IMG/VR virus record: IMGVR_UViG_3300042556_001279
Span: 1 to 32,413 of that record
Reading direction: 5' to 3' (one strand)
Source of the DNA: a virus
Length of the DNA stretch: 32,413 bases
Both the position numbers and the translations under genes were made by a program. Positions 4,893 through 22,947 of the stretch are shown in pieces (position 1 is the stretch's first letter; every line of letters begins with the position of its first letter). The notes beneath the pieces were generated by a model that did not search any database, was not told the DNA's origin, and saw nothing but the letters and a program-made list of their open reading frames with translations.

Positions 4893-5243
4893 TCAAGCGA
4901 GACGGGCAAGCAGCTTGCGGAGCGTGGCGGCAGTCTCGTCGTCTGGCACATACGCAGTTCGCAGCCGCGCCTCGGCGCGATGGATCGCCTCCCGCTCCTC
5001 GTCGGTGAGCGTCGGCTTTGACTCGGTGCGTGCGGATATACCGTCGGTATATTCCGACACACCAGGGCAAAGCGTGTAAGAAACCTCTGCCCGTGTTTCT
5101 TTCGGAATCGGTTCCTTATCACCTCGCTCGCGGAGCTGGAGCCGCAGCCGCTCAATCTCGGCGGCCGCCTCTTCAAAAAGCTGGCTTGCGACCGGGACAT
5201 GGACGTAACGCAGGCTGCGAATCCGCTCGACAATGTCGCTCAT
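4893..5243 (-). CDS. Phage accessory protein, Eaa/ead-like
   Basis: A 116-residue protein starting MSDIVERIRSLRYVHVPVAS, followed by LFEEAAAEIERLRLQLRERG. This N-terminal pattern (SDIVERLR... LFEEAADEIERLR) is common in small phage early proteins of unknown function. A short coiled coil spans residues about 24-42. The C-terminal region (PTLTDEEREAIHRAEARL) is a separate helical piece. Its start overlaps the TGA of the HTH gene upstream as ATGA. A hyphenated inverted repeat lies within its coding sequence at 5033-5056. Confidence 0.7.
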   Translation of the reverse strand: MSDIVERIRSLRYVHVPVASQLFEEAAAEIERLRLQLRERGDKEPIPKETRAEVSYTLCPGVSEYTDGISARTESKPTLTDEEREAIHRAEARLRTAYVPDDETAATLRKLLARLA

Positions 5244-5494
5244 CCCGTAGCCCTCATCTCTGCCAGGTGCCGCTCCCTGATTTCCGCCTTCATCCGCTCG
5301 ATGTCGTCAGGCGTCGGATCGCTCTCGTAGATTTCCTTCGTCGGCCGCCGCCTGTTGGTCAGGTTGTGCCGCACCTTGAGGTCGTGCACGTAGCTGTGGC
5401 TGCACCCGAGGACGGCGGCGATCTCGGCATAAGACGCGCCGCCGTCCCACAGGTCGTGCAGTTGCTTTGCGCAATACTTGATTGCAACGGGCAT
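5240..5494 (-). CDS. Small HTH DNA-binding protein with DPTPxxIE tail
   Basis: An 84-residue protein with a clear helix-turn-helix (residues about 12-42: LHDLWDGGASYAEIAAVLGC, then SHSYVHDLKVRHNL), a basic NRRRP segment, then DPTPDDIERMKAEIRERH. It is homologous in layout to the protein at 1975-2337. ATG 5494 is preceded by AAAGGA (8 bases upstream). It lies directly after the sliding clamp gene and overlaps the next start. It is probably a transcriptional regulator or an adaptor that binds phage DNA. The combination of HTH and DPTP tail is a hint of a planctomycete host rather than proof. Confidence 0.7.
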   Translation of the reverse strand: MPVAIKYCAKQLHDLWDGGASYAEIAAVLGCSHSYVHDLKVRHNLTNRRRPTKEIYESDPTPDDIERMKAEIRERHLAEMRATG

Positions 5495-5495
5495 C

Positions 5496-6614
5496 TCAGT
5501 CCTTTGCCAGCGGCATGATTACGCCCGTGTGGTCACCGCAACGCAGCACGACGGCGGACTGCTCGTCCACGGCCTCAACCTCAACCTCGGGCTCGGCGTC
5601 ACCGGAAATGCCGTTGAGCCACTCGATAACGAACGTCGGGTCCAGCTTCACGCTGCAGGAATCTCCAGCCTCCACGACGTCGCAGGTGACGCTGGACTCG
5701 CCGCACTCGGCCGACTGCCCGTGCAGCCAAATGCCGGTGTTGCCAAAGGTGTAGTCGACGCCCTTGCTGCTCTCGCTGGTCACGATGGCAGCCGCTCGAG
5801 TCGCAGCCATCAGCGCCGCCCTGTCCACGGTCGTGGCCTTCGCGTCACGCTCGGGCACGACGTCCCGCCACTTGGGGAATCGTCCCTCGACGAGCCTGGC
5901 CGTAACGACGGTGCCGCCGATGGTCGCCACGATTTCGCTGGGCGTGCCCTCGAGCTGCACCGCAGCGTCTCCAGCGTTGCCCGCGATCCGTGAGATAATG
6001 CCCATCGCACGGGCCGGCACGAGAGTTTGCGAGTCATCAACCGCCAGGTCGTGCTCGGCAGCGAACGATGACAGACGCCGCCCGTCCGTTGCCACCAGGG
6101 TCACCGTGTCGCCCCGCACCTCCACGAGCACCGCACCGAGAGCGTAGCGGCTCGACTCGTTGTCCGTGGCGAACACAGTGCCACGCACAGCACGGACGAA
6201 CTGGTCAGCCGGCAGCCGGGTCACGCTTTTGGCGTTGGTCGGCGTCCACGCAGGGTACTCGGCAGGATCCTCGGTCGGCAGAGTCCACTCGCCGTGGCCA
6301 GCACGGACGATGCAGCTGGTGCCGTTGGGCACCAGAGTGATCTCGTCGCCCGTCGCGTTGGCCACGATGGCCTGCAGCCGGTCCTTCGGCAGCAGCAACG
6401 CCGGCCCGTCGTAGGAAATGGCAGCGTCGATGCGGATGTCGCCATCACTCCCAGACAGGACCGCGCCCGACAGGAGCACGTTCTGCAGCACCGGCCGTGG
6501 ACTTCTTGCCGGGACAGCCGGTGCCACGGCAGCGAGCGCCGCCTTGAGATCCCTGGTGGACAGGCTGATGCCACCATCCGCTTTCTTTCGTCGTTCCTTC
6601 GTCATCGTCGCCAT
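5496..6614 (-). CDS. dnaN: DNA polymerase III beta subunit (sliding clamp)
   Basis: A 372-residue protein if started at ATG 6614, which has AAAGGA about 9 bases upstream; ATGs at 6623 and 6605 are alternatives. The length equals bacterial beta clamps (about 366). Family landmarks are in order: RPVLQNVLL (residues 40-48), VATDGRRLSS (175-184), LVEGRFPKWRDVVP (241-254) and the C-terminal GVIMPLAKD, equivalent to the usual VVMPMRL end. The clamp is a ring that tethers polymerase to DNA. No DNA polymerase gene is visible here, so it presumably recruits the host enzyme or diverts host clamp partners. A membrane-protein frame overlaps its 5' end. Confidence 0.9.
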   Translation of the reverse strand: MATMTKERRKKADGGISLSTRDLKAALAAVAPAVPARSPRPVLQNVLLSGAVLSGSDGDIRIDAAISYDGPALLLPKDRLQAIVANATGDEITLVPNGTSCIVRAGHGEWTLPTEDPAEYPAWTPTNAKSVTRLPADQFVRAVRGTVFATDNESSRYALGAVLVEVRGDTVTLVATDGRRLSSFAAEHDLAVDDSQTLVPARAMGIISRIAGNAGDAAVQLEGTPSEIVATIGGTVVTARLVEGRFPKWRDVVPERDAKATTVDRAALMAATRAAAIVTSESSKGVDYTFGNTGIWLHGQSAECGESSVTCDVVEAGDSCSVKLDPTFVIEWLNGISGDAEPEVEVEAVDEQSAVVLRCGDHTGVIMPLAKD

Positions 6615-6720
6615 CTCGCACATCCTTTCGCAGAGAGGTACCCATCAACACGCCGCAGGAAAACGCTCCTGCGACGACAATCATCCCCGTCACAAGCAGG
6701 GCAAGGTCTTCCGTTGTCAT
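6445..6720 (-). CDS. Small membrane protein overlapping dnaN
   Basis: A 91-residue frame starting at ATG 6720, which overlaps the TGA of the methyltransferase gene as ATGA. Residues 6-28 (LALLVTGMIVVAGAFSCGVL) form a good transmembrane helix, followed by charged residues (RKDVRDGDDDEG). Only the first 35 or so codons are free of dnaN. The remaining 56 codons overlap the first 170 bases of dnaN in another frame and have low-complexity Gly/Arg character, so that part is constrained by dnaN. The N-terminal membrane part is convincing. The tail may be incidental. Confidence 0.5.
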   Translation of the reverse strand: MTTEDLALLVTGMIVVAGAFSCGVLMGTSLRKDVRDGDDDEGTTKESGWWHQPVHQGSQGGARCRGTGCPGKKSTAGAAERAPVGRGPVWE

Positions 6721-7718: not shown

Positions 7719-7909
7719 AGCCCCGCCTCCGACTTTTCGATTACCTGGGCCAGCCTGCAGCACCTGTCCAGCGTCACGGACAGCGTCTTCGCAGCCACCT
7801 CGAGCAACAGGCGATGCTCCTCTGGCGTGTCGTCGTGTGCAGCTGCCTCTTCAAGCCAACGCACGACGTCCAGCGGGGGCGGCAGGTAGATCCACTCGGG
7901 CCTGCTCAT
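7715..7909 (-). CDS. Small hypothetical early protein
   Basis: A 64-residue protein, MSRPEWIYLPPPLDVVRWLE onward, largely helical, with a Leu-rich middle (EEHRLLLEVAAKTLSVTLD). Start and stop overlap neighbours as ATGA (7909-7906) and GTGA (7718-7715), so it is embedded in the coupled replication operon. There is no membrane segment or recognised domain. Confidence 0.6.
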   Translation of the reverse strand: MSRPEWIYLPPPLDVVRWLEEAAAHDDTPEEHRLLLEVAAKTLSVTLDRCCRLAQVIEKSEAGL

Positions 7910-8139
7910 GCGTCACCTCCCGTCACGCGGATGGTGCGGGCCTGGCCGTCGAGCCACGTGACGCGGCCCTTGCGGCGCAGTGCCTTCAAGTGGCAGACCA
8001 TGCCGTTCACCGTGGTTTTGTAGTGATGCGAAATCTCACGCACGGTCGGCGAAAAGCCGTGCACGTTGATCCAGCCCTCGATGAACTCAAGGACGTCCTG
8101 CTGGCGTGGCGTCAGGGTGTTCGTGCTGGTGCTGCTCAT
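7906..8139 (-). CDS. Stand-alone LexA-type DNA-binding domain protein
   Basis: A 77-residue protein that aligns by eye with the LexA N-terminal winged helix: LTPRQQDVLEFIEGWINVHG (residues 9-28), FSPTVREIS (29-37), then HLKALRRKGRVT (50-61) and GQARTIRV (65-72). The protease and dimerisation domain with the Ala-Gly cleavage site and Ser/Lys dyad is absent, so it cannot self-cleave. It lies between the winged-helix initiator candidate and a small gene in the replication operon. It may bind SOS-type or phage operators. The DNA site is unknown. The family call is strong; the role is inference. Confidence 0.82.
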   Translation of the reverse strand: MSSTSTNTLTPRQQDVLEFIEGWINVHGFSPTVREISHHYKTTVNGMVCHLKALRRKGRVTWLDGQARTIRVTGGDA

Positions 8140-11689: not shown

Positions 11690-12028
11690 TCAACGAGACG
11701 CCGCCGTTGCTTTCCATTCCCGCTCGCCCCGTCCGCTCGCGCTCTCCACGACGCGGCCCGTGGCCACGATCCTGCCAGCCTTGGCAAGCTCGTTGATCCG
11801 CTTGTTGACCTGATGCGGCAGCAGCCCGCACCGCGCCGCGATGCCACTGGCACCTGCCGGGCCGTGCGACAACGCCTCGAGGATCGCCTGGTGGTGCTCG
11901 CCCGCGAACGATCGCGCCGAGCGTGCCGCCTCGTGCGACGTCACGGGGTCAGACTTGCGGGCCGCCGGCTGTGCGAAGAGCGGCAGGTCCGCCAGCCGAG
12001 ACACGACGTCCAAGTAGTAATCGCTCAC
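11690..12028 (-). CDS. Winged-helix DNA-binding protein
   Basis: A 112-residue protein starting at GTG 12028-12026, which overlaps the TGA of the coiled-coil gene upstream. After LPLFAQPAARKSDPVTSHEA there is a winged helix at about residues 45-90 (HHQAILEALSHGPAGASGIA, then LLPHQVNKRINELAKAGRIV). The DPVTSHEAA plus winged-helix pattern is common in small phage proteins near replication genes. It is probably a regulator or a DNA-structure protein; the target is not known. Confidence 0.7.
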   Translation of the reverse strand: MSDYYLDVVSRLADLPLFAQPAARKSDPVTSHEAARSARSFAGEHHQAILEALSHGPAGASGIAARCGLLPHQVNKRINELAKAGRIVATGRVVESASGRGEREWKATAASR

Positions 12029-12252
12029 AGCCCCTCGCCTCCTTTCTCGCGTGCGGCCTCTAGCCGCTCGTTGCGCTGCGCCAGCGACGTGCATCGCTCG
12101 CGTAGCTCGGACATTTCCAGATCCATCTGGACGAGCACGTTGAGGATGCCTGCCATGTTTCGGCTCATCTCGCCGCTAGTGAAACGCGACCAGTACGACA
12201 GCCAGGTCATTGCGTCGTCTAGGTCGCGGACGGGGCGGGGGCGTTTTGCCAT
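12025..12252 (-). CDS. Small coiled-coil protein
   Basis: A 75-residue protein whose second half is a heptad-rich coiled coil (LVQMDLEMSELRERCTSLAQ). It starts at ATG 12252 with AAGGG about 8 bases upstream. It shares layout with the 12411-12638 protein (a segment ending in an M-A-x-I-x-x-L type helix, then a coiled coil), so the two may be distant paralogues or partners. The stop overlaps the next GTG. No family is recognised. Confidence 0.6.
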   Translation of the reverse strand: MAKRPRPVRDLDDAMTWLSYWSRFTSGEMSRNMAGILNVLVQMDLEMSELRERCTSLAQRNERLEAAREKGGEGL

Positions 12253-12410: not shown

Positions 12411-12638
12411 TCAATCTCCTGTCCAGACGACGTCAGGCTGCCGATTCGGTGGCGGCTCGTACTTGTTCAACCTCTTCGCCAGGGCGGCGATCTTGTCCTT
12501 CAGCGCTTCCTCGCGGAGGTACGCATCGCGTGAACGTGAGTCGAGCACGCGAATAAACGCCGCCATGTTGGGCCTGGCCTGCCGCTCGAGGTACTCGGCG
12601 ATCACGCTGGCGTCGATGTTCACGGGCTCGTCACGCAT
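12411..12638 (-). CDS. Small coiled-coil protein
   Basis: A 75-residue protein, MRDEPVNIDASVIAEYLERQ onward, with a helix (PNMAAFIRVLDSRSRD) and a short coiled coil (LREEALKDKIAALAKRLNKY), then a Pro-rich end. The ATG at 12638 overlaps the last eight bases of recT, so it is translationally coupled to it. It might be a RecT accessory protein by position only. Confidence 0.6.
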   Translation of the reverse strand: MRDEPVNIDASVIAEYLERQARPNMAAFIRVLDSRSRDAYLREEALKDKIAALAKRLNKYEPPPNRQPDVVWTGD

Positions 12639-13464
12639 TCGTCACCTCCTCGGGCTCTGCCATGAGGATCTCGACGCGGCCCATCAGCAGCCGCGTCAAC
12701 TCGGCAAACTCGTCGTCGCTGATCTCGCCGCCGTCGTGGTAGACGTCGAGCTTGCTGCGGAGCGCCTCGCACGCCTCAATCGTCGTGGCACTGCCGATGG
12801 CAAGGCGGCCAGCGTCGGCGCGAGACCGCTTGATCTCGGGCGTGTGCTTGGGCTTGAGCGGCACAACCGTCTCGGTCGTGTCGAACTTGGGCCGCACAAC
12901 CACGGGCTCGCGGACGGGCTCGGGCGTGGGGTAGTCCTGGGCCTCCTCCGCAGTCACGAGTCCCTTCAGCACGTCAGGGAAGGCGTCACGCAAAGCAAAG
13001 CCGCGAGCCCTCATCTGGAGCATCCGCCGCGGGTACTGGCTCCAGGGGCCGCTCTTGCCCCACAGCCCTGCCTTCTTGGCGTCATCAACCGAGAACCGGC
13101 TGATCGTGGCGTCCGGGTAGCCTCTCCGCTTGGCATCGCAGATGGCGACCATCTTGTCGCCGTCACCCTCGATCGTCTCGCGGACGTACTCGCAGACGGG
13201 CGAGCCGACGCAGACAGCCTTGGCCGTGTCGCCGTAGATCGACGGGCGACCGTTCACGACGGCGATGCCCTGGACAGCCTGCATAGGGGCCAGGCCAAGC
13301 TCCGCACCGTGCTGGATCGCCAGCAGGCAGGATTCCGGCTTGCCACGGAAATCCTTGGGAGCAAAGTCACTGGCGGCCAGCATCTTCGCGAACTGCATGG
13401 CGTCCGAAACAGATTGCAGCGAAAGCCCTCGGGGCTGCGTCTGCGTAGAAATCTCCGTGCTCAT
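12631..13464 (-). CDS. recT: RecT-family single-strand annealing recombinase
   Basis: A 277-residue protein started at ATG 13464, which has AAAGGA and GAGAG upstream; the longer open frame is Arg/Pro-rich and unlikely. The core is typical of RecT-like annealing proteins: AMQFAKMLAASDFAPKDF, then ESCLLAIQHGAELGLAPMQA, then VQGIAVVNGRPSIYGDTAKA, and later PWSQYPRRMLQMRARGFALR with DAFPDVLKGL. It anneals complementary single strands in phage recombination. The C-terminal third is a variable linker plus a helical region. It heads the replication/recombination operon with the DUF669/SSB-like gene, and RusA lies further downstream. No exonuclease partner (RecE/YqaJ) is visible. Confidence 0.9.
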   Translation of the reverse strand: MSTEISTQTQPRGLSLQSVSDAMQFAKMLAASDFAPKDFRGKPESCLLAIQHGAELGLAPMQAVQGIAVVNGRPSIYGDTAKAVCVGSPVCEYVRETIEGDGDKMVAICDAKRRGYPDATISRFSVDDAKKAGLWGKSGPWSQYPRRMLQMRARGFALRDAFPDVLKGLVTAEEAQDYPTPEPVREPVVVRPKFDTTETVVPLKPKHTPEIKRSRADAGRLAIGSATTIEACEALRSKLDVYHDGGEISDDEFAELTRLLMGRVEILMAEPEEVTNA

Positions 13465-13592
13465 CTCTCGCGTCCTTTCGTGAATGAATGCCCGGCTGGC
13501 GTCCTGCTCACCGGGTGGTATTGCGTCCCTGCTGCTCGGGCTCCGCCCGACTCCTTCCGCCCGCTGCGTCCTGCTCGCAGGCGGTCCTCTCC
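13465..13592 (-). promoter_or_regulatory. recT leader with hairpin and short repeats
   Basis: This 128-bp gap ahead of recT contains a tight hairpin (TCGGGC, GGA, GCCCGA; plus-strand positions about 13539-13553). It also has three copies of AGCAGGACGC or AGCAGGGACGC (plus-strand GCGTCCTGCT at 13499-13508 and 13566-13575, GCGTCCCTGCT at 13523-13533). AAAGGA, the recT ribosome-binding site, ends the leader. There is no gene in it. It could tune recT translation or act as a weak attenuator after the first gene of the operon. Confidence 0.35.
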
Positions 13593-13817
13593 TCAAAACG
13601 TGATGTCTCTCACGGGCACCGACAGCCACGCCCCGCCGACGTCGATACAGGCGTCGCCGTTGTCAAAAAACCAATCGATCCTGCCGCTCCAGGGCTTGCC
13701 GCAAGACACGCCTGACACGTAGTCGCCGACGGCGTAGGTGCGGGCGAGGGCCGACGGCATCGTGTGGTCGGCCATTCCGGCCACGGCTGCGAGGTATTCC
13801 GATCTGTGTGCGTCCAT
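13593..13817 (-). CDS. Small hypothetical protein, first gene of the replication operon
   Basis: A 74-residue protein starting at ATG 13817, with GGAG 9 bases upstream (an ATG three codons earlier has no spacing for it). The C-terminal half is beta-rich (YAVGDYVSGVSCGKPWSGRI, then DWFFDNGDACIDVGG, then WLSVPVRDITF) and looks like a small SH3/KOW-type barrel. It is the first gene after the strong promoter at 13848-13875. No family is recognised. A small barrel could bind nucleic acid or protein. Confidence 0.65.
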   Translation of the reverse strand: MDAHRSEYLAAVAGMADHTMPSALARTYAVGDYVSGVSCGKPWSGRIDWFFDNGDACIDVGGAWLSVPVRDITF

Positions 13818-13847
13818 GTGGGTCATCTCCGTTAGTGGTAGGGCGCA

Positions 13848-13875
13848 ACTATACGCCCGTACAGGTGATGGTCAA
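13848..13875 (-). promoter_or_regulatory. Strong sigma-70 promoter of the replication operon
   Basis: On the minus strand, TTGACC (13875-13870), a 16-bp spacer and TATAGT (13853-13848) form a near-consensus housekeeping promoter. Transcription would start near 13841, about 25 bases before the ATG at 13817. Unlike the three other promoters nearby, its spacer has no TACCGNNNNCGGTA operator, so it may be constitutive or controlled from the operator pair about 100 bp upstream. Confidence 0.7.
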
Positions 13876-13956
13876 GCGTCGCAAAAGGGATTTTCGATAC
13901 TGTTTTCCTGCGGCGAAACGCAGGTTGCGGGAGTGGTTGTTGTGTTCAGTAGTCGC

Positions 13957-13970
13957 TGCCGGTAGCGGTA
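13957..13970. promoter_or_regulatory. Operator A (degenerate TACCGNNNNCGGTA)
   Basis: The sequence reads TGCCGGTAGCGGTA on the plus strand, TACCGCTACCGGCA on the minus strand, one base off the perfect palindromic ends. Its centre lies 31 bp, about three helical turns, from the centre of operator B, and the two sites are in opposite orientation. On the plus strand the last TA begins a possible -10 (TAATGT, 13969-13974) with a weak TTCAGT 18 bp upstream, but no convincing plus-strand gene follows. Confidence 0.6.
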
Positions 13971-13983
13971 ATGTTGGGTGCAA

Positions 13984-14011
13984 AGCGTACCGCTACCGGT
14001 AAAGATGTCAA
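13984..14011 (-). promoter_or_regulatory. Promoter with operator B in its spacer
   Basis: On the minus strand, TTGACA (14011-14006), a 16-bp spacer and TACGCT (13989-13984). The 14-bp site TACCGCTACCGGTA (13988-14001) fills the spacer, and its last TA is the first two bases of the -10. The same geometry occurs at 15339-15366 and 15684-15711. The -10 is weak. The predicted start near 13977 would give a transcript running over operator A into the replication operon. The -35 overlaps the stop region of the upstream small gene. Confidence 0.65.
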
Positions 14012-14151
14012 CCAAGAAATCGGGATGCTGCGGAAACGGCGGCGTCAATGCACTGGGCAACGGCTCGAGCCAGCTCGGAGTCGGTGCCAAGCTGCTGGCC
14101 CAGGCGGACCAAGAGCAGGGAACGAATGATGGCGTCCATGTAGCGTTTCAT
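14008..14151 (-). CDS. Very small hypothetical protein
   Basis: A 47-residue protein (MKRYMDAIIRSLLLVRLGQQ onward) whose ATG 14151 overlaps the TGA of the C5 methyltransferase gene (14150-14148). It is helical and weakly hydrophobic near the start and ends VAQCIDAAVSAASRFLG. The coupling to the methyltransferase is the main support. Its last codons overlap the -35 of the operator B promoter. No function can be given. Confidence 0.5.
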   Translation of the reverse strand: MKRYMDAIIRSLLLVRLGQQLGTDSELARAVAQCIDAAVSAASRFLG

Positions 14152-15062
14152 GTGGTCACCTGGCTTTCGGCTTGAATGATGGCTCGTCCGATGACTTCTG
14201 CGACCTGTGGCACGACGGCGTTTCCGAGGCATCGCAGTCGGTCCACCCGATCGGGTATCCCATGAGCCACTCGACCCACTGCGGGTTCAGTCTCCCACTG
14301 TTGCCTGCATCCATCCGGCCTCGCCCGCCGTCCCCAAGAACTGCATCCGTCAGCGATATCCCCGGATGGGCTTTGCTGGTCGCCGTGTTTCTTGAGCCGC
14401 TGCCGTTTGCGTCTCCTGCAGTTGGCGTCGGCCACTTCCGCACAGCAATCCCCAGGGACGGGCCAGGCTTGCCCTTGGTCTTGCCGTCCTTGTGATCCTG
14501 CACCCGCTGCTCGTAAGCCTCCAGTGGCTCGTCGTGATTCCCCCTGATGGCATGAAACACTGTCGGCGTAGGCCACAAGCCAGACCCTTTCGCGCCGGTG
14601 CGGGGCACCAACGTCGGCAGCGGCAATAACGTGCCATTCGCATACATACCCGACCGAGGCAAGCGCCCGCAGGATTCCGTGGAACGTGCGGCCTCCGTCA
14701 TGGTTGAGAAGGCCGATGGGATTCTCAGCCACAAAGAACCTTGGGCCGAGATCCGCAACAACTCGGAGGGCTTCGCCCCACATCCATCGCTCATCGCTCG
14801 CGCCTTTCTGCTTGCCTGCGTGGCTCACCGGCTGGCACGGCACGCCAGCACATATCAGGTCAACGTGCCACTCGGCGGCATCTCCAACCGGGAACGTGCG
14901 GACGTCAGCCCACCGCTGAACGCCAGGCCAATGCTTTTCCAACACGCGGCTGGCATATGGGTCAATCTCGACCTGCCAGCGGCACTCCATGCCAGCACGC
15001 TCTAGGCCCAAGTCGAAGCCGCCGATCCCGGCGAACAGTGATCCAAACGTCATCGGTCGCAT
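14148..15062 (-). CDS. DNA cytosine-5 methyltransferase (Dcm type)
   Basis: A 304-residue protein with the C5-methyltransferase motifs in order: motif I FGSLFAGIGGFDLGLE (6-21), the acidic EIDPYA (32-37), catalytic GVPCQPVSHAGKQKG (73-87, Cys76), AENP (112-115), PHRRERVWLVA (154-164) and motif X LGNAVVPQVAEVIGRAI (279-295). It transfers a methyl group to cytosine C5 and would protect phage DNA or help control genes; no restriction partner is adjacent. The stretch between motif VIII and motif X is low-complexity, and the same DNA carries a second conserved-looking frame (see 14156-14591). It lies under the operator-controlled early promoters. Confidence 0.9.
   Translation of the reverse strand: MRPMTFGSLFAGIGGFDLGLERAGMECRWQVEIDPYASRVLEKHWPGVQRWADVRTFPVGDAAEWHVDLICAGVPCQPVSHAGKQKGASDERWMWGEALRVVADLGPRFFVAENPIGLLNHDGGRTFHGILRALASVGYVCEWHVIAAADVGAPHRRERVWLVAYADSVSCHQGESRRATGGLRAAGAGSQGRQDQGQAWPVPGDCCAEVADANCRRRKRQRLKKHGDQQSPSGDIADGCSSWGRRARPDGCRQQWETEPAVGRVAHGIPDRVDRLRCLGNAVVPQVAEVIGRAIIQAESQVTT
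14156..14591 (-). other. Alternative +1 frame inside the C5 methyltransferase gene
   Basis: Overlapping the methyltransferase's C-terminal half, the +1 frame is open from at least 14794 to 14156. It carries GLWPTPTVFHAIRGN, a second KWPTPTAGDANGSGS, and SGRLNPQWVEWLMGYPIGWT. These WPTPT and LNPxWVEWLMGxPxGW elements are familiar as C-terminal segments of other phage DNA methyltransferases. They fit directly after the RRERVW block if one base is skipped near GAAAGGG (14591-14585). So the DNA appears to encode two alternative methyltransferase C-termini. This may be an old frameshift, a recombinational overlap or true dual coding. There is no evidence of translation here. Confidence 0.5.
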
Positions 15063-15083
15063 CCTTGCATCGTGGCGTTGGCG

Positions 15084-15287
15084 TCAAGCAATCCGCTTCT
15101 CAAGTCGAGACTCGTCGTTTGGGTAACGAGCAAGCGTGTCGGCGATGAACCGATCAGCCTGCTCAATTTCCGCAAACGCAAACTCACCGATCTTTACCCA
15201 GCCAGCAGAGTTCTTGATGGAATAGGTGACGTAGACGGTGTCACGGACACCAACGGTCCACATGCCTTGCTTCACCGTGCGAATCAT
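15084..15287 (-). CDS. Small hypothetical early protein
   Basis: A 67-residue protein, beta-rich at first (MWTVGVRDTVYVTYSIKNSA, then GWVKIGEFAFAEIEQADRFI) and helical at the end. ATG 15287 has GGAG about 9 bases upstream and lies about 45 bases after the predicted start of the operator C promoter. It is therefore the first gene of the transcript that goes on to the C5 methyltransferase. The fold resembles small phage proteins that take one substrate strand, but no family is recognised. Confidence 0.6.
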   Translation of the reverse strand: MIRTVKQGMWTVGVRDTVYVTYSIKNSAGWVKIGEFAFAEIEQADRFIADTLARYPNDESRLEKRIA

Positions 15288-15338
15288 CGACTTACTCCGG
15301 TTGGCGCTGCGTCAGGTCTCAATCGCCTGACTCCCAGA

Positions 15339-15366
15339 TCATTACCGGTATCGGTAAAGATGTCAA
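15339..15366 (-). promoter_or_regulatory. Promoter with operator C in its spacer
   Basis: On the minus strand, TTGACA (15366-15361), a 16-bp spacer and TAATGA (15344-15339). The operator TACCGGTATCGGTA (15343-15356) fills the spacer and shares its last TA with the -10. The sequence flanking the -35 (GGTTGACATCTTTACCG) is almost identical to that of promoter B. It drives the small gene at 15287 and probably the C5 methyltransferase. The gap 15288-15410 holds nothing else. Confidence 0.7.
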
Positions 15367-15410
15367 CCAAGATTGACGGATTTTCTATAAACCGTGCAAA
15401 ACACCGCTGG

Positions 15411-15677
15411 CTAGCGGGATTTTCGCCGCTTCCGCCTGGGCTTTCCGGCGGGCGTTTTGGCCTGGGCTTCGGCCTTTTTGCCGTTTGAGTGAGGGGCCAG
15501 TTCGCCACGCATGGCACGGCATCCCTCCACGCTCACCATCCAGGCCCGCTCGTTAGCCTTGAAACCCTGCAGCCGCCCCTCACGGAGCCGCAGCCGGATC
15601 AGACCGTCCGTGCATCCTGCGATGCCGCAGGCTTCCTCGACCGAGCACCACTTGCCGTCTGGAGTCATCGAAACCAT
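15411..15677 (-). CDS. Xis/MerR-like HTH protein, candidate repressor
   Basis: An 88-residue protein with an excisionase/MerR-type helix-turn-helix at about residues 10-55 (KWCSVEEACGIAGCTDGLIR, then LRLREGRLQGFKANERAWMV) and a strongly basic tail (KPRRKRRKSR). It is the gene nearest the integrase and divergent from it. Its own promoter overlaps operator D, and the ATG (15677) sits where transcription should begin, so the mRNA may be leaderless. It is the best candidate for the protein that binds TACCGNNNNCGGTA and may also act as excisionase. A second ATG at 15668 is possible. Binding is inferred. Confidence 0.65.
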   Translation of the reverse strand: MVSMTPDGKWCSVEEACGIAGCTDGLIRLRLREGRLQGFKANERAWMVSVEGCRAMRGELAPHSNGKKAEAQAKTPAGKPRRKRRKSR

Positions 15678-15683
15678 GCCTCA

Positions 15684-15711
15684 ACTCTACCGCTGCCGGT
15701 AGACAAGTCAA
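15684..15711 (-). promoter_or_regulatory. Promoter with operator D in its spacer, possibly leaderless
   Basis: On the minus strand, TTGACT (15711-15706), a 16-bp spacer and TAGAGT (15689-15684). The operator TACCGCTGCCGGTA (15688-15701) fills the spacer and shares its last TA with the -10. Seven bases after the -10 comes the ATG of the HTH gene (15677), so little or no 5' leader is predicted. Leaderless mRNA is known for some phage repressors, for example lambda cI from pRM. Confidence 0.68.
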
Positions 15712-15970
15712 TCTTCCGCCGCCGCTAGACCCATTTGTGGAAACCGACCAATGGCACGGCGTAGGATGGGGGCAGCCGAGCCAAGTATCAGCGGAGGGCA
15801 TGGAAGTGGTGCGACTGATCACCTGTGTGCATTCGACTACTAGTGAGCGTTTGTATACAGGTGTTCAGGTCTGGTATTCTTTCCCTTCCGCGGTGGCAAC
15901 GGCATGGAGCCGCTAGGTGTAGGTCGCCTAGAGGTTGATCGCACGGAGGCACCTGCGGAGAGGTGCTTCG
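15712..15970 (+). promoter_or_regulatory. Integrase upstream region with candidate promoter
   Basis: This 259-bp region between the divergent HTH and integrase genes contains a plus-strand promoter candidate: TTGTAT (15851-15856), an 18-bp spacer and TATTCT (15875-15880). The integrase RBS GGAGAGG lies near 15957-15963. No TACCG operator is present. A 38-codon frame from ATG 15800 to TAG 15916, with GGAG very close to its start, is open but overlaps the promoter and is weak. An attP core may lie here or beyond the integrase. None can be identified without host sequence. Confidence 0.45.
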
Positions 15971-16918
15971 ATGACGCTGAAAGAACTGCTGGACCGATAT
16001 TCAATTCTGAATGCCCTGTCCGATAGGACGATTGAGCTCTACGGCTGCACGCTAGACAGATTCCGCGATTTCCTGCGGGCGGAATCTGGCGATCAGACAC
16101 GCGAACCGACAGTTGCTGACCTCGACGACATGGTCGTCAGCAAGTTTTTGCGGTGGCGTGCGAAGACACCGCACCACGGGCGGATTCCAAAGCCTGCGTC
16201 TGTGCTCAAGGACCGCACGCAGATTGTCGCCTTGTGGAACTTCGCCGCTCGCAAGAGGCTGGCGGCAGAGTTCCCAGCATTGGCACGCATGAGGGTTGCC
16301 CAGCGAATTCCTCGAGCCTACACGGCCGATGACGTCGCCAAGATGATTCGGACAGGGCGGCTGCGCCGTGGCACCGTAGGTGGCCAGCCAGCCGCCTGGT
16401 GGTGGCCCACGCTGATCTACACGGGCTACTGCACCGCCGAGCGGATCTCGGCAATGCTCTCGCTTCGCTGGTCTGAGGTTGACCTCGACGGTTGCCGCGT
16501 CACGTTCCTCGGTGACACTCGCAAGGGCGGTTTGCGCGACATTGTGAGAGAGATCACCCCAGACCTTGCCAAGATGCTCCGCGCCCGCCAGCGGGCTCCT
16601 GGCGAGCTCGTATGGGATTGGGACCGCGTTCATCGGGATTCGATCTGGCAATCCCTCAAGCTGCTGTGCGCCAAAGCAAACGTCACCTACAGGGGCTTCC
16701 ACGGGCTGCGTCGTGCGGCAGCGTCCTATATGGCGGCCGGTCCAGGCGGGCGGGCTGCGGCGTCTGCTCTGCTTGATCACAGCAGCCCGAGGCTACTGGA
16801 GCATTATGTCGATCCAGCCATCTGCCCGCCGGAACGGACCAGCGTGGATTCGCTGCCCACGCTCGACCTCGGCTGGCCTACCGCACGAGGCCCAGAATCC
16901 ACTCCCGGTACAGGCTGA
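15971..16918 (+). CDS. int: Tyrosine site-specific recombinase (phage integrase)
   Basis: A 315-residue tyrosine recombinase and the only clear plus-strand gene. ATG 15971 is chosen because GGAGAGG lies 8 bases before it. The N-terminal SAM-like core-binding domain (residues 1-110) is followed by the catalytic domain. Catalytic residues read Arg158 (TAERISAMLSLRW), Lys185 (DTRKGG), His244 and Arg247 (FHGLRRAAASYM), His270 (LLDHSS) and Tyr279 (EHYVDP). All are present, so it should be active in integrating and excising the phage. It is divergent from the HTH gene, and its end overlaps the serine protease gene by about 40 bases tail to tail. Confidence 0.93.
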   Translation: MTLKELLDRYSILNALSDRTIELYGCTLDRFRDFLRAESGDQTREPTVADLDDMVVSKFLRWRAKTPHHGRIPKPASVLKDRTQIVALWNFAARKRLAAEFPALARMRVAQRIPRAYTADDVAKMIRTGRLRRGTVGGQPAAWWWPTLIYTGYCTAERISAMLSLRWSEVDLDGCRVTFLGDTRKGGLRDIVREITPDLAKMLRARQRAPGELVWDWDRVHRDSIWQSLKLLCAKANVTYRGFHGLRRAAASYMAAGPGGRAAASALLDHSSPRLLEHYVDPAICPPERTSVDSLPTLDLGWPTARGPESTPGTG

Positions 16919-17606
16919 CGCGGGTGTGAGCGGTCTCTTCGCCCTGGCGGCTCTTGAGCGTCGCGCCCTTCGCCGCCATCGTGAACGAGTTCACGCCAGC
17001 CAGCCGGCCGCCTGCGAATAGCGGGCCGCCGCTGTCGCCGGGGCTGATGCACAACTCGAGCACGCTTGTGCCGCACGCCGCATGGCACACGATGAGGCTG
17101 CGGTCGAACCTCTCGATCGTCTGCGTCCCGGCTCGCAGCCTGCCGTCGTGGTCCGTGTGCCCCTCGGTCAGCCGTCCGTGCAGCCCGTAGCCGGCGATGC
17201 TGACCACCTGGCCGACGTGCTCGTCGCCGTCCGACAGGGCAGGGAAGAAGTCCAGCTCGAGCGGCTCGTCGCAGCGGACCAGAGCGAGGTCGTGCAGCCC
17301 GTGCACGTCACGCTGCCAATCGGGATGGATCACGACCGTCGCCGCAGCCCGCGGCAGCGTCCCTGACGTCACGATGACATCGGTGCAGCCATGCACTACA
17401 TGAGCCGCGGTGATCGCCCAGTGCGGAGTCAGTAGCGTGCAGGACGCAGAGGCCCGCCTGCCGTCCCCACCGACGCCGCTGACCTTGCAGGTGTACGTCG
17501 AGAATCCACGCCCGTACTCGACATACCGGGCGTCGGGCACGGCATCGTCGGTCGTGCCGGCCACCAGCGGCGAGCACAGCACAGCGATGATGATGGCGGC
17601 ACGCAT
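16878..17606 (-). CDS. Secreted trypsin-like serine protease (S1 family)
   Basis: A 242-residue protein with a signal peptide (RAAIIIAVLCSPLVAG, residues 2-17) and the chymotrypsin-fold triad intact: His69 in TAAHVV, Asp106 in HDLALVR, Ser192 in SPGDSGGPL. Six or more Cys suggest disulphides. It would cleave proteins outside the cytoplasm. Such proteases are uncommon in phages; it may be a cargo gene affecting the lysogen. It ends inside the 3' end of the integrase on the opposite strand. No clear ribosome-binding site precedes ATG 17606. TTGACA (17631-17626) lies upstream without a good -10. Confidence 0.82.
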   Translation of the reverse strand: MRAAIIIAVLCSPLVAGTTDDAVPDARYVEYGRGFSTYTCKVSGVGGDGRRASASCTLLTPHWAITAAHVVHGCTDVIVTSGTLPRAAATVVIHPDWQRDVHGLHDLALVRCDEPLELDFFPALSDGDEHVGQVVSIAGYGLHGRLTEGHTDHDGRLRAGTQTIERFDRSLIVCHAACGTSVLELCISPGDSGGPLFAGGRLAGVNSFTMAAKGATLKSRQGEETAHTRVSLYREWILGLVR

Positions 17607-21147: not shown

Positions 21148-22947
21148 CTACTGGAGCGTTCTGTAGTAGCTGTCTGGATAGTATTCCATCGGCTGGTCGA
21201 TTTCGCGGCAGATGGCATCCTTGCGGATCGCAACGCATACAGGGTTGAATCCTGCATAGCAGTAGACGTCCACCCACCTGGCCTCTGGCGCGATCTGCTG
21301 CATCGCTCTTCTAGATGCCGTCAGGTCAACGCTGTCGCCTAGCAGGCCGTTGTCGTTCTTTCCGGCAGACCACATGGTTCCATCTGTCTTTATGCCTACA
21401 AGATAATTCCGAAAGAGCGACGAGTTGTAGTCCCAGCTCGTAAACGTAGCGCCTGACGCATAGCCATCTCCAATGCACGACAACGCAAATCCGTTTCCCT
21501 CAACCCGATTTGCGGCGATAGAGTCAATCTCTAGCGTGCTATCCAAACTAGGATTGGCAACGTACAGCCTGCCTCCAGATGAAATGACGACTCCGCTCCT
21601 GGCAAAGCGATATGGCCCGGCAGAATGGAAGAGTATCCGGTCGTGGAAGGCATCGGTTGCGTTGGCAACATCCCAGTACGCCGACAAACCAAATGAGTAA
21701 AGCCCGCCATTGTTGTCAATCAGGAAGTCGTCGCCGACTGCATCGCTTGATACAAACGAATGGCTGTCATCAAACATCTCGCAAGAAAACTGAGCGCCGC
21801 TTCCACTGCGAATGTCGTTTGGGCCGCCAGGCGGTTCAACCACAGGACTAGGTGCAGAAGAGTAGCCGCGACCAGACTTCACCAAAGTCGCTGAAACAAC
21901 GACTCCATTCTGCACCTGACAGTTTGCTATTGCTTTGACTCCAGATGCTGGCTCGCTGAATACAAGCGGAGCTGGGCCGAAGGTAGTCGCTCCCTGCGAG
22001 CCTTGCGAATAGCCGCTGCCACCGCTCGTCACACTTATTCGCTTCACAAAACCAGTGAGCTTTTCCGGTGCGTTCATCACGCTGTTTTGGTAGTCATACC
22101 ACCAGAAATACATCTGGTCGTCGTCTGCGATGACGCAGTTGCTTAGTCCAGCAGGAATTGAGACGGCTTTGATGCCCGCCGGAAGATTTACCTCCGTAAC
22201 TATGGGAGCGAACGGCGGGTGGATGGAAGCGTAAACCGACACAGACCTTCCTTGTCCTCCGTAAAGCCTGGCGTCCGGCCTGCTTGTGTTTGGAGAAACG
22301 CCATGCGCACCGCCATTGAGCATTCCCGCGACAAACACTCTTCCGCTGCGCGTAACGACGGTCACGCTGTATGCGTTTCCGTTTCGCGGCGACCTTGCAG
22401 CGACATCAACAATTGGCTCGTCTATCGCGGGAAAGAAAATCCTTCGCGGCCTTGCGCAGTAATCTGCGGGGAAGAAAATCGGCGACAATGAGTCGCGGAA
22501 CGGAAGGTACACGCGAGCGTTAGCACTCAGCGTGTTTGCCGCGTCTCCAATAAACGCGCTGAATATGTCACATTGCCGGCCAGGCTGCCCCCATGCGTAG
22601 AGCTCGCCGTGAATGGTTAGGCCGACCAAGCCGTAAATTGTTGAGCCGCCACCACCGTGAACAAGCTGTATCTTTTTCCAAGGGAACTGCTTTTCGCAGG
22701 GGACGTCATGAATCTCGCCGCTCTGGGCGGTATTCTGGCTGGCCCCTAGCGGCCACCTTTTGAAAAGGACTCTGCGTGGCCCGGATTCTCTAGTCGGGAC
22801 AATCGGTGATATGGCTTGGCTGATGTTGAATCCTGCTTGAGAATTCACATAGCCAGACACGCCATTTGGGTAGAAGCTGAATGGCGTGTTGTCATTGCAG
22901 TGTCCCCAGATATGGACGGGCAGCCTGCCGTCGTAGAAGAAGCTCAT
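21148..22947 (-). CDS. RCC1-like beta-propeller tail tip/receptor-binding protein
   Basis: A 599-residue protein with RCC1-type blades: GELYAWG (114-120), GRVFVAGMLNGG (202-213), GGLYSFG (414-420) and GTMWSAGKNDNGLLGD near residue 530. Between blades sits a separate insert with SGGSGYSQG (308-316) and KSGRGYSSAP (358-367), a Gly-Ser-Gly-Tyr repeat common in phage fibres. It is the last gene of the tail module, where receptor-binding proteins usually lie. The DNA looks distinctly more AT-rich, with A/T-ending codons, than the neighbouring genes, suggesting recent acquisition. Propeller fold likely; ligand unknown. Confidence 0.75.
   Translation of the reverse strand: MSFFYDGRLPVHIWGHCNDNTPFSFYPNGVSGYVNSQAGFNISQAISPIVPTRESGPRRVLFKRWPLGASQNTAQSGEIHDVPCEKQFPWKKIQLVHGGGGSTIYGLVGLTIHGELYAWGQPGRQCDIFSAFIGDAANTLSANARVYLPFRDSLSPIFFPADYCARPRRIFFPAIDEPIVDVAARSPRNGNAYSVTVVTRSGRVFVAGMLNGGAHGVSPNTSRPDARLYGGQGRSVSVYASIHPPFAPIVTEVNLPAGIKAVSIPAGLSNCVIADDDQMYFWWYDYQNSVMNAPEKLTGFVKRISVTSGGSGYSQGSQGATTFGPAPLVFSEPASGVKAIANCQVQNGVVVSATLVKSGRGYSSAPSPVVEPPGGPNDIRSGSGAQFSCEMFDDSHSFVSSDAVGDDFLIDNNGGLYSFGLSAYWDVANATDAFHDRILFHSAGPYRFARSGVVISSGGRLYVANPSLDSTLEIDSIAANRVEGNGFALSCIGDGYASGATFTSWDYNSSLFRNYLVGIKTDGTMWSAGKNDNGLLGDSVDLTASRRAMQQIAPEARWVDVYCYAGFNPVCVAIRKDAICREIDQPMEYYPDSYYRTLQ

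Follow-up and report, generated by a model that had tools for sequence, protein, structure and literature searches.

Operator palindromes at three promoters of an uncultivated phage and the small excisionase-type protein that very probably reads them

The lambdoid CI/Cro switches, with 14-bp sites in the 434 type, have an autoregulated repressor, operators over the early promoters, a double operator and possibly a leaderless repressor mRNA. Heteroimmune series of repressors with diverging operators are already known, and so are excisionase-type proteins as switch partners. In phage 186, the binding site of Apl lies between promoters, and both pR and pL are repressed by it (PMC7498355, in excerpt); a separate repressor, CI, is present (PMC7708051, abstract). 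The excisionase-type proteins of Pf4 and P2 also act beside a separate repressor, Pf4r and P2 C (PMC7379572, in excerpt). The Cluster A mycobacteriophages such as L5 and Bxb1 have one repressor and an operator motif that diverges with it, which gives a heteroimmune series (PMC6550527, in excerpt). The present analysis concerned the virus record IMGVR_UViG_3300042556_001279, and the window was this entire record of 32,413 base pairs (bp). It encodes a protein of 88 amino acids (aa) of the excisionase/MerR type beside a tyrosine integrase gene (int), and this protein very probably reads three palindromes, TACCGN4CGGTA, placed in three promoters (P1, P2 and P3; Table 1). Together with a fourth site, O2, the palindromes are likely to be the operators of a phage switch that works with one protein, a winged-helix repressor. 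In the limited literature searched, no account was recognised in which an excisionase-type protein is the only immunity repressor.

The distribution of the palindrome in the window was analysed. Exact matches were found only in the three promoters, all on the minus strand, and no other exact site occurred across the record; the mean expectation in 100 dinucleotide shuffles was 0.00 and no shuffle held three sites. The result is in accordance with the earlier note, which had described three 14-bp palindromes placed identically in three -35/-10 spacers. In each promoter a TTGACT or TTGACA lies upstream with 4 nucleotides (nt) between the -35 and the operator, the -10 box stands 16 bp from the -35, and the final TA of the operator is the first TA of the -10. 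The fourth operator, which follows the P3 operator O1, has one mismatch, and all the sites fall within 1.75 kb. The interval given in the earlier note starts at this fourth operator (13957) and leaves the site unnamed. A consensus scan of 12600-17000 revealed three sigma-70-like promoters, P1, P2 and one more, P4 (shuffles 0.7 +/- 0.9); P2 was scored with a 17-bp spacer and P3 was below the threshold of that scan.

The P1 operator begins 24 bp upstream of the ATG of the 88-aa gene. With the usual distance of 6-8 nt from the -10 to the start, the P1 transcript would start at or beside this ATG, and the mRNA is possibly leaderless. Because the -35 is near consensus and the spacer is 16 bp, a protein lying across the spacer and the -10 would most simply block RNA polymerase, and the geometry is most naturally read as polymerase exclusion. 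O1 and O2 lie about three helical turns apart, which suggests cooperative binding. A MerR-like activation from the spacer was also considered, as the operator lies between the -35 and the -10 and MerR-type proteins appear among the weaker fold matches of the 88-aa protein. Classical MerR promoters have overlong spacers of 19-20 bp that are corrected by activation, whereas the spacer here is 16 bp and the -35 is near consensus; activation of this kind is very improbable.

The conservation of the arrangement was studied in relatives, whose contigs are designated by L numbers. The protein scan with the 88-aa sequence gave 31 viral loci, and int adjoins the gene in 29 of them, the other two (L009, L018) having less than 400 bp on that side. 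The scan for the promoter-operator pattern gave, among the matches listed, contigs with two or three sites, and many single-hit contigs that look like chance matches in coding sequence. Also among the matches listed were six contigs missed by the protein scan (L062, L064, L067, L090, L097 and L136), which encode the protein at 42-51% identity and represent four distinct proteins. The recurring layout has P1 at -24, P2 in most cases between +300 and +321 relative to the start of the protein, and P3 with a second operator. P1 drives the winged-helix gene beside int, P2 a variable gene, with different proteins following it in different relatives, and P3 the recT operon. Further relatives were fetched with the int alignment (best 80 of 374) and with the alignment of orf77, the first gene of the P3/P4 operon (best 80 of 217).

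The P1 rule required TTGA, an ATG 23-27 nt after the operator start, a protein of 70-125 aa and nearness to int; the letters of the operator played no part in it, apart from a terminal TA being preferred. By this rule the P1 geometry was present in 173 of 208 loci with int and absent from 35, and removal of identical 300-bp P1 regions left 100 non-redundant contigs. TANNNT stood at spacer 16 in 95 of these and at 16 or 17 in all 100; the final T of the -10 was not selected for by the rule, while the terminal operator TA in the 95 is partly there by construction, because operators ending in TA were preferred. The exact palindrome at P1 was carried by 31 non-redundant contigs, 29 with the protein family of the window together with L093 and L095. 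In these 31, TTGA lies 10 bp upstream of 66 of the 71 exact coding-strand operators. The O1-O2 spacing was 29-31 bp in 13 of 14 scored contigs and 20 bp in one, that is two or three helical turns. A central TA in the operator was found in 0/31 cases at P1, 16/16 at P2 and 14/19 at P3-O1, as expected if the protein's own promoter and the lytic promoters are bound with different strength.

The correspondence between protein and operator was analysed with a promoter-anchored test, which replaced a noisy 16-mer concordance test. At least 1200 bp of downstream sequence was available in 93 of the 100 contigs and a promoter candidate in 88. The P1 operator of a contig matched the spacers of its own downstream promoters (at least 10 of 14 positions) in 62.5% of cases (55/88), compared with 0.8% for shuffled operators. 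Foreign P1 operators from contigs with close proteins matched equally strictly in 63.9% (identity at least 90%) and 70.7% (70-90%), and those with distant proteins in 39.9% (50-70%), 32.1% (35-50%) and 16.6% (below 35%). The group below 35% is the fairer control, because P1 and the candidate spacers all tend to end in TA. The cruder first test, which compared the 16-mer with 2.5 kb on both strands, was noisy and pointed in the same direction: scores of at least 13 were reached in 36.6% of self comparisons, 2.4% of shuffled ones (shuffled mean 10.9/16) and 3.7% of those from proteins below 35% identity.

The individual residues of the protein were then compared with the operator bases in the largest protein family, of whose 63 non-redundant members 57 were scored and 6 remained unscored. 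Residue 32 predicted base 3 of the half-site in P2/P3, arginine occurring with C in 43/43 and glycine with A in 14/14, under a scoring pattern, T[AGT][CA]CGNTA, that allows only C or A at base 3. The 43 arginine members had 17 distinct helix sequences and the 14 glycine members had 8. Arg32 lies where the predicted helix 24-33 ends, and among residues 5-60 its column was the only one to reach 100%, the runner-up being at 96.5%. On a tree built without the residue-32 column, the residue and the base each changed twice and did so together both times. The co-variation is a strong pattern whose formal test is not significant.

Natural exchange of the protein and its operators was revealed by sister phages. 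Ten contigs (L148-L157) were fetched through the mini-LexA gene, which encodes a stand-alone LexA DNA-binding domain, and many of their genes are more than 75% identical to those of the window. Three of them (L151, L152 and L154) span P1-P3, the other seven being uninformative on operators, and TACCGN4CGGTA was absent from all three across P1-P3. These three and L162, L165 and L237 have backbone genes in common with the window, another small protein, and operators of their own at P1, P2 and P3. L152 has a protein of 43% identity with the operator TAACGN4CG[TC]TA, next to int at 40%, orf77 at 97% and mini-LexA at 88%. L237 (int 92%, orf77 77%) has a protein of another family and the operator GGTTCCG / TTCCGN4CG[GC][TA]A, and L151 (mini-LexA 95%, orf77 77%) has the same protein family and operator as L237. 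In L154 (int 40%, orf77 92%, mini-LexA 73%) a protein of a third family occurs with the operator TTCTAACGCCG, and in L162 (int 79%, orf77 91%) a protein of a fourth family with ATGCAAA[GA]. L165, with int at 97% and a trypsin-like protein at 98%, has a small protein of 46% identity and the operator CTACCG[AC]TA. Counting the window and its near relatives there are six operator types. In the region from int to orf77 each phage has its own type in 3-4 copies and lacks the other types, except for one match of the B type (TAACG, the type of L152) in L154 that falls inside a site of its own type; the type patterns were written after the contigs had been viewed, so the type table is descriptive and not blind.

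This exchange bears on the reading in which a host repressor such as LexA, or mini-LexA, uses the operators and the 88-aa protein has no part in it. The phage carries a mini-LexA gene, and some LexA boxes also have a 5-N4-5 layout. Mini-LexA is retained at 95, 88 and 73% identity in L151, L152 and L154, yet the P1-P3 operators of all three differ from those of the window. One host regulator is also unlikely to read the TACCG, TAACG, GGTTCCG and TTCTAACGCCG types, and a different box at P4 and int, independent of the small-protein type, suits a LexA-type reader better. Host LexA and mini-LexA were rejected as readers of TACCGN4CGGTA because of L151, L152 and L154, where mini-LexA is kept with other operators, and this explanation is given the least probability of those considered. 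The earlier note had pointed to the product of 15411-15677 as the protein to try on these operators. The co-exchange in sister phages, together with the prediction of base 3 from residue 32, makes this protein very probably the operator reader.

The family and fold of the 88-aa protein were examined by profile and structure comparison. HTH_17 was matched by 35 of 51 aligned members (E 0.1) and the NCBIfam family TIGR01764 'excise' by 33 of 51 (E 0.01); among the PHROG matches of the 51 members, 24 were to 'DNA binding protein' and 20 and 19 to two excisionase families. The only solved structure matched by the family profile was gp37, 4j2n (E 0.01). The predicted model had a mean pLDDT (predicted local distance difference test) of 67.9 and an Xis-type winged-helix fold, its best Foldseek match being Pukovnik Xis (probability 1.00, TMt 0.73-0.76, E 0.02-0.03). 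Foldseek gave no match at E 0.001 or better. CbpM and MarR-type chains came lower, followed by the MerR-type proteins GlnR, TnrA and BldC at E 0.3 or worse. Pukovnik Xis (4j2n), both the best model match and the only solved profile match, differs in being 17% identical over 48 columns and in being named an excisionase. The other small-protein families are related to the window protein by profile comparison with a probability of 92-96%.

These similarities raise the reading in which the 88-aa protein is mainly the excisionase, or recombination directionality factor (RDF), of the integrase and its promoter sites are mere autoregulation. The 'excise' match of 33/51 relatives, the best solved match to Pukovnik Xis and the position of int beside the gene in 29/31 protein-scan loci speak for it. 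RDF sites elsewhere are direct repeats 10-11 bp apart (PMC7498355, in excerpt), whereas inverted 14-bp sites were found here at three separate promoters; an attachment site (att), where RDF repeats with a spacing of about one helix turn would be expected, was not located. Between the window and L165, int is 97% identical and hardly any difference is seen in the non-coding DNA that runs from int up to some 50 bp short of P1, whereas the protein and operators differ; int is retained in L237 too while the protein and operators change. A block of about 50 bp between int and P1 is kept in the five phages compared despite their differing small proteins and operators, and does not change when the protein type changes. 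The excisionase-only reading was weakened by this unchanged block and is held to be improbable.

The preferred one-protein switch can be described as follows. The 88-aa protein made from P1 would bind TACCGN4CGGTA, presumably as a symmetric dimer. Lying between the -35 and the -10, it would exclude RNA polymerase from P1, giving autoregulation; exclusion at P2 would silence an early cargo that varies among the phages and is here a methyltransferase operon, and exclusion at P3 the recT/replication operon. In a lysogen the protein would persist at a low level and hold the early operons silent. It would also repel any superinfecting phage of the same operator type, and heteroimmunity would be expected between sister phages in which protein and operators have been exchanged. 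The P1 operator, having no central TA, would allow a different binding strength at the protein's own promoter. As expected of an immunity repressor, the operators overlap the protein's own promoter and the early promoters, and the operator co-varies with the protein, the exceptions being L093 and L095 at P1. A role as immunity/lysogeny switch is plausible and is the preferred reading. The earlier note had also spoken of a phage with no recognisable CI, which agrees with the Pfam scan: neither HTH_3 nor Peptidase_S24, the domain pair of a CI-type repressor, was found in the 46 window open reading frames (ORFs) scanned, from 285 ORFs of at least 50 aa.

The role in lysogeny has to be weighed against that of a Cro/Cox/Apl-like early regulator, which would use the same operators to damp lytic early transcription while lysogeny depends on an unrecognised or host factor. 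The same sequence traces would be expected of it. The own and other early promoters carry the same operator. The relatives of the 88-aa protein resemble excisionases, and the window encodes other small helix-turn-helix (HTH) proteins. In the excerpts of PMC7498355 and PMC7379572, 186 Apl is both excisionase and repressor, and Pf4 XisF4 regulates the switch beside a separate repressor gene. Here the int-P1 gap holds no second repressor gene and none was recognised in the 46 scanned ORFs, and the operator set swaps as a whole with the protein, like immunity regions. The early-regulator role is on balance unlikely, though it deserves more weight than activation, the excisionase or LexA, and the lysogenic role would be favoured over a Cro/Cox-like one; the window may still hold a separate repressor gene of unrecognised kind.

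Several observations weigh against the one-protein switch. The P1 operator had no match of at least 10/14 to its own downstream promoters in 33 of 88 contigs, and P2 and P3 were both exact in only 14 of the 31 P1-palindrome contigs; L017-L021 and L032-L034 keep P1 alone as an exact site. In L093 and L095, TACCGN4CGGTA stands at P1 with small proteins from other families, and the presence of the 14-mer therefore does not by itself identify the protein. Only two independent changes of residue 32 and base 3 lie on the tree (sign test p 0.5). Int has also changed (40%) in L152 and L154. The operators of L154, L165 and L162 are not clean palindromes, and symmetric dimer binding is therefore not general; the P1 operator of L152 is a perfect half-site palindrome and its P2 operator is not, which counters a general rule of a weak P1. 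The window protein taken alone is under the family cut-offs (HTH_17 E 0.13 against Pfam, and no TIGR01764 or PHROG match), and its closest solved relative, 4j2n, is an excisionase. Two further small HTH proteins are encoded on the minus strand in the early operon, at 5240-5494 (HTH_23, E 9.5e-5, and weakly HTH_31, E 0.03) and 11690-12094 (HTH_20, E 1.6e-4). Their identities in L151/L152/L154 are 99/67/46% and 89/83/92%, and neither tracks the operator type. Genome scans with the protein and int alignments found no integrated prophage in a known host: the protein alignment gave 0/61 candidates, and the int alignment three short contigs of metagenome-assembled genomes (MAGs) among 61 candidates, with no secure host. 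Among 50,697 named phage records, the 88-aa protein, int and the L237 protein had no match, and the only matches to named phages were weak ones of helicase and tape measure.

A second layer of control was suggested by LexA-like boxes. The pattern TGWWCN4GTAYA has exactly two matches in the window, at P4 and in the int promoter. The strict form of the P4 box was present in 33 of 100 contigs and a relaxed form in 51, across several protein families, and the strict form in 0 of 500 shuffles. The P4 and int boxes are independent of the small-protein type. The mini-LexA family was found in 40 of 43 contigs spanning its region: 31 had both box and mini-LexA, 9 had mini-LexA without the box, 3 had neither and none had the box alone. 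This co-occurrence is only suggestive as a sign of binding. In the MAG holding L314, CCGAACATATGTACGG was seen by eye immediately ahead of the point where a LexA-domain gene probably starts, and the scanned motif list matched nothing there. Through the boxes at P4 and int, host LexA and/or mini-LexA would probably exert a second control that does not depend on the first. The mini-LexA protein has no self-cleavage domain, and its gene lies in the replication operon between a dnaB/primase gene and a beta clamp gene.

The neighbouring genes are summarized with the promoters in Table 1. The family of the 47-aa protein that ends the P2 operon is present in 66 of 100 contigs, and its stop lies inside TTGA in 50 of these 66; an antirepressor is one idea for it. 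The conserved block between P1 and the int box is a candidate attP; a tRNA scan of the window and an Rfam scan of 13500-16200 were both empty. The phage encodes its own DNA polymerase III beta clamp (5496-6623, minus strand) with all three Pfam domains. A trypsin-like serine protease gene adjoins the integrase (16878-17606, minus strand) and is 93-98% identical in L152, L154 and L165. A 599-aa protein (21148-22947, minus strand) has RCC1-like repeats and weak tail-fibre similarity.

Table 1. Promoters, operators, boxes and genes of the proposed switch region and of the mini-LexA locus
Feature	Coordinates	Strand	Remarks
P1 promoter, TTGACT-N16-TAGAGT	15684-15711	-	operator 15688-15701 in spacer; predicted start at or beside ATG 15677
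P2 promoter, TTGACA-N16-TAATGA (or N17-AATGAT)	15338-15366	-	operator 15343-15356
P3 promoter, TTGACA-N16-TACGCT	13984-14011	-	operator O1 13988-14001
Operator O2 of P3, TACCGCTACCGGCA	13957-13970	-	31 bp after O1, just past predicted start
P4 promoter, TTGACC-N16-TATAGT	13848-13875	-	LexA-like box TGTACGGGCGTATA (13850-13863) over -10; just before orf77
Second LexA-like box, TGAACACCTGTATA	15854-15867	-	int promoter region
88-aa excisionase/MerR-type winged-helix protein, proposed operator-binding repressor	15411-15677	-	P1 gene; autoregulation proposed
67-aa protein, first P2 gene	15084-15287	-	no family match; P2 cargo varies among relatives
C5-cytosine DNA methyltransferase, P2 operon	14148-15062	-	PF00145, 5.5e-51
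47-aa small conserved protein, last P2-operon gene	14008-14151	-	stop TGA inside P3 -35 TTGACA
First P3/P4-operon genes: orf77 (77 aa, 13593-13826) and RecT (12631-13629)	12631-13826	-	
Tyrosine integrase (int)	15971-16918	+	divergent from P1; start taken as invariant Met13 of ORF 15935-16918
Non-coding block between P1 and int box	15759-15808		conserved in five phages compared
Mini-LexA, stand-alone 77-aa LexA DNA-binding domain	7906-8139	-	PF01726, 7e-17; candidate reader of P4/int box

A wider proposal can be made tentatively, with a little less than even confidence. A large group of uncultivated temperate phages would use an excisionase-type winged helix as its only immunity repressor, change heteroimmune type by exchange of the gene with its four operators in three promoters, set one operator base through residue 32 (arginine or glycine), and tie the switch to the host damage response through a second layer, made of a phage LexA domain and its boxes at the int and recT promoters. 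If the one-protein switch is true, a small excisionase/MerR-type protein can itself be an immunity repressor, and mutual exclusion among these phages could be predicted from metagenomes. The lock and key, protein and target sites, are legible from sequence alone, and such a natural repressor-operator series offers a DNA-recognition code that can be read and tested. With about 90 aa, 14 bp and a fixed promoter geometry, each pair is small enough to be tested easily in reporter strains.

Compared with the known systems, the locus resembles 186 Apl, P2 Cox and Pf4 XisF4 in having a small regulator at early promoters (PMC7498355 and PMC7379572, in excerpt). A separate repressor gene is present in 186, P2 and Pf4, whereas none was recognised here in the ORFs scanned, and RDF sites of their type, as excerpted, are direct repeats one helix turn apart, in contrast to the 14-bp inverted repeats inside spacers of this phage. 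GIL01 gp6, a truncated LexA that is mainly a DNA-binding domain, comes from a temperate Bacillus phage whose promoters carry LexA boxes (PMC6182141, in excerpt). As an earlier case of a truncated LexA in a phage it is compared with mini-LexA only; gp6 activates a late promoter, with control by host LexA and gp7, according to the same excerpt, whereas the box here is at P4 and int. Cluster A phages have up to 30 asymmetric stoperators across the genome, mostly in one orientation (PMC6550527, in excerpt), whereas the window has four symmetric sites, all at early promoters, and the Cluster A repressor is a different protein. Unlike lambdoid CI/Cro, the locus has all three promoters in the same direction, with no divergent repressor promoter and no HTH_3/S24 domain found; in its working it would be like them, with autoregulation, operators overlapping the early promoters and a double operator.

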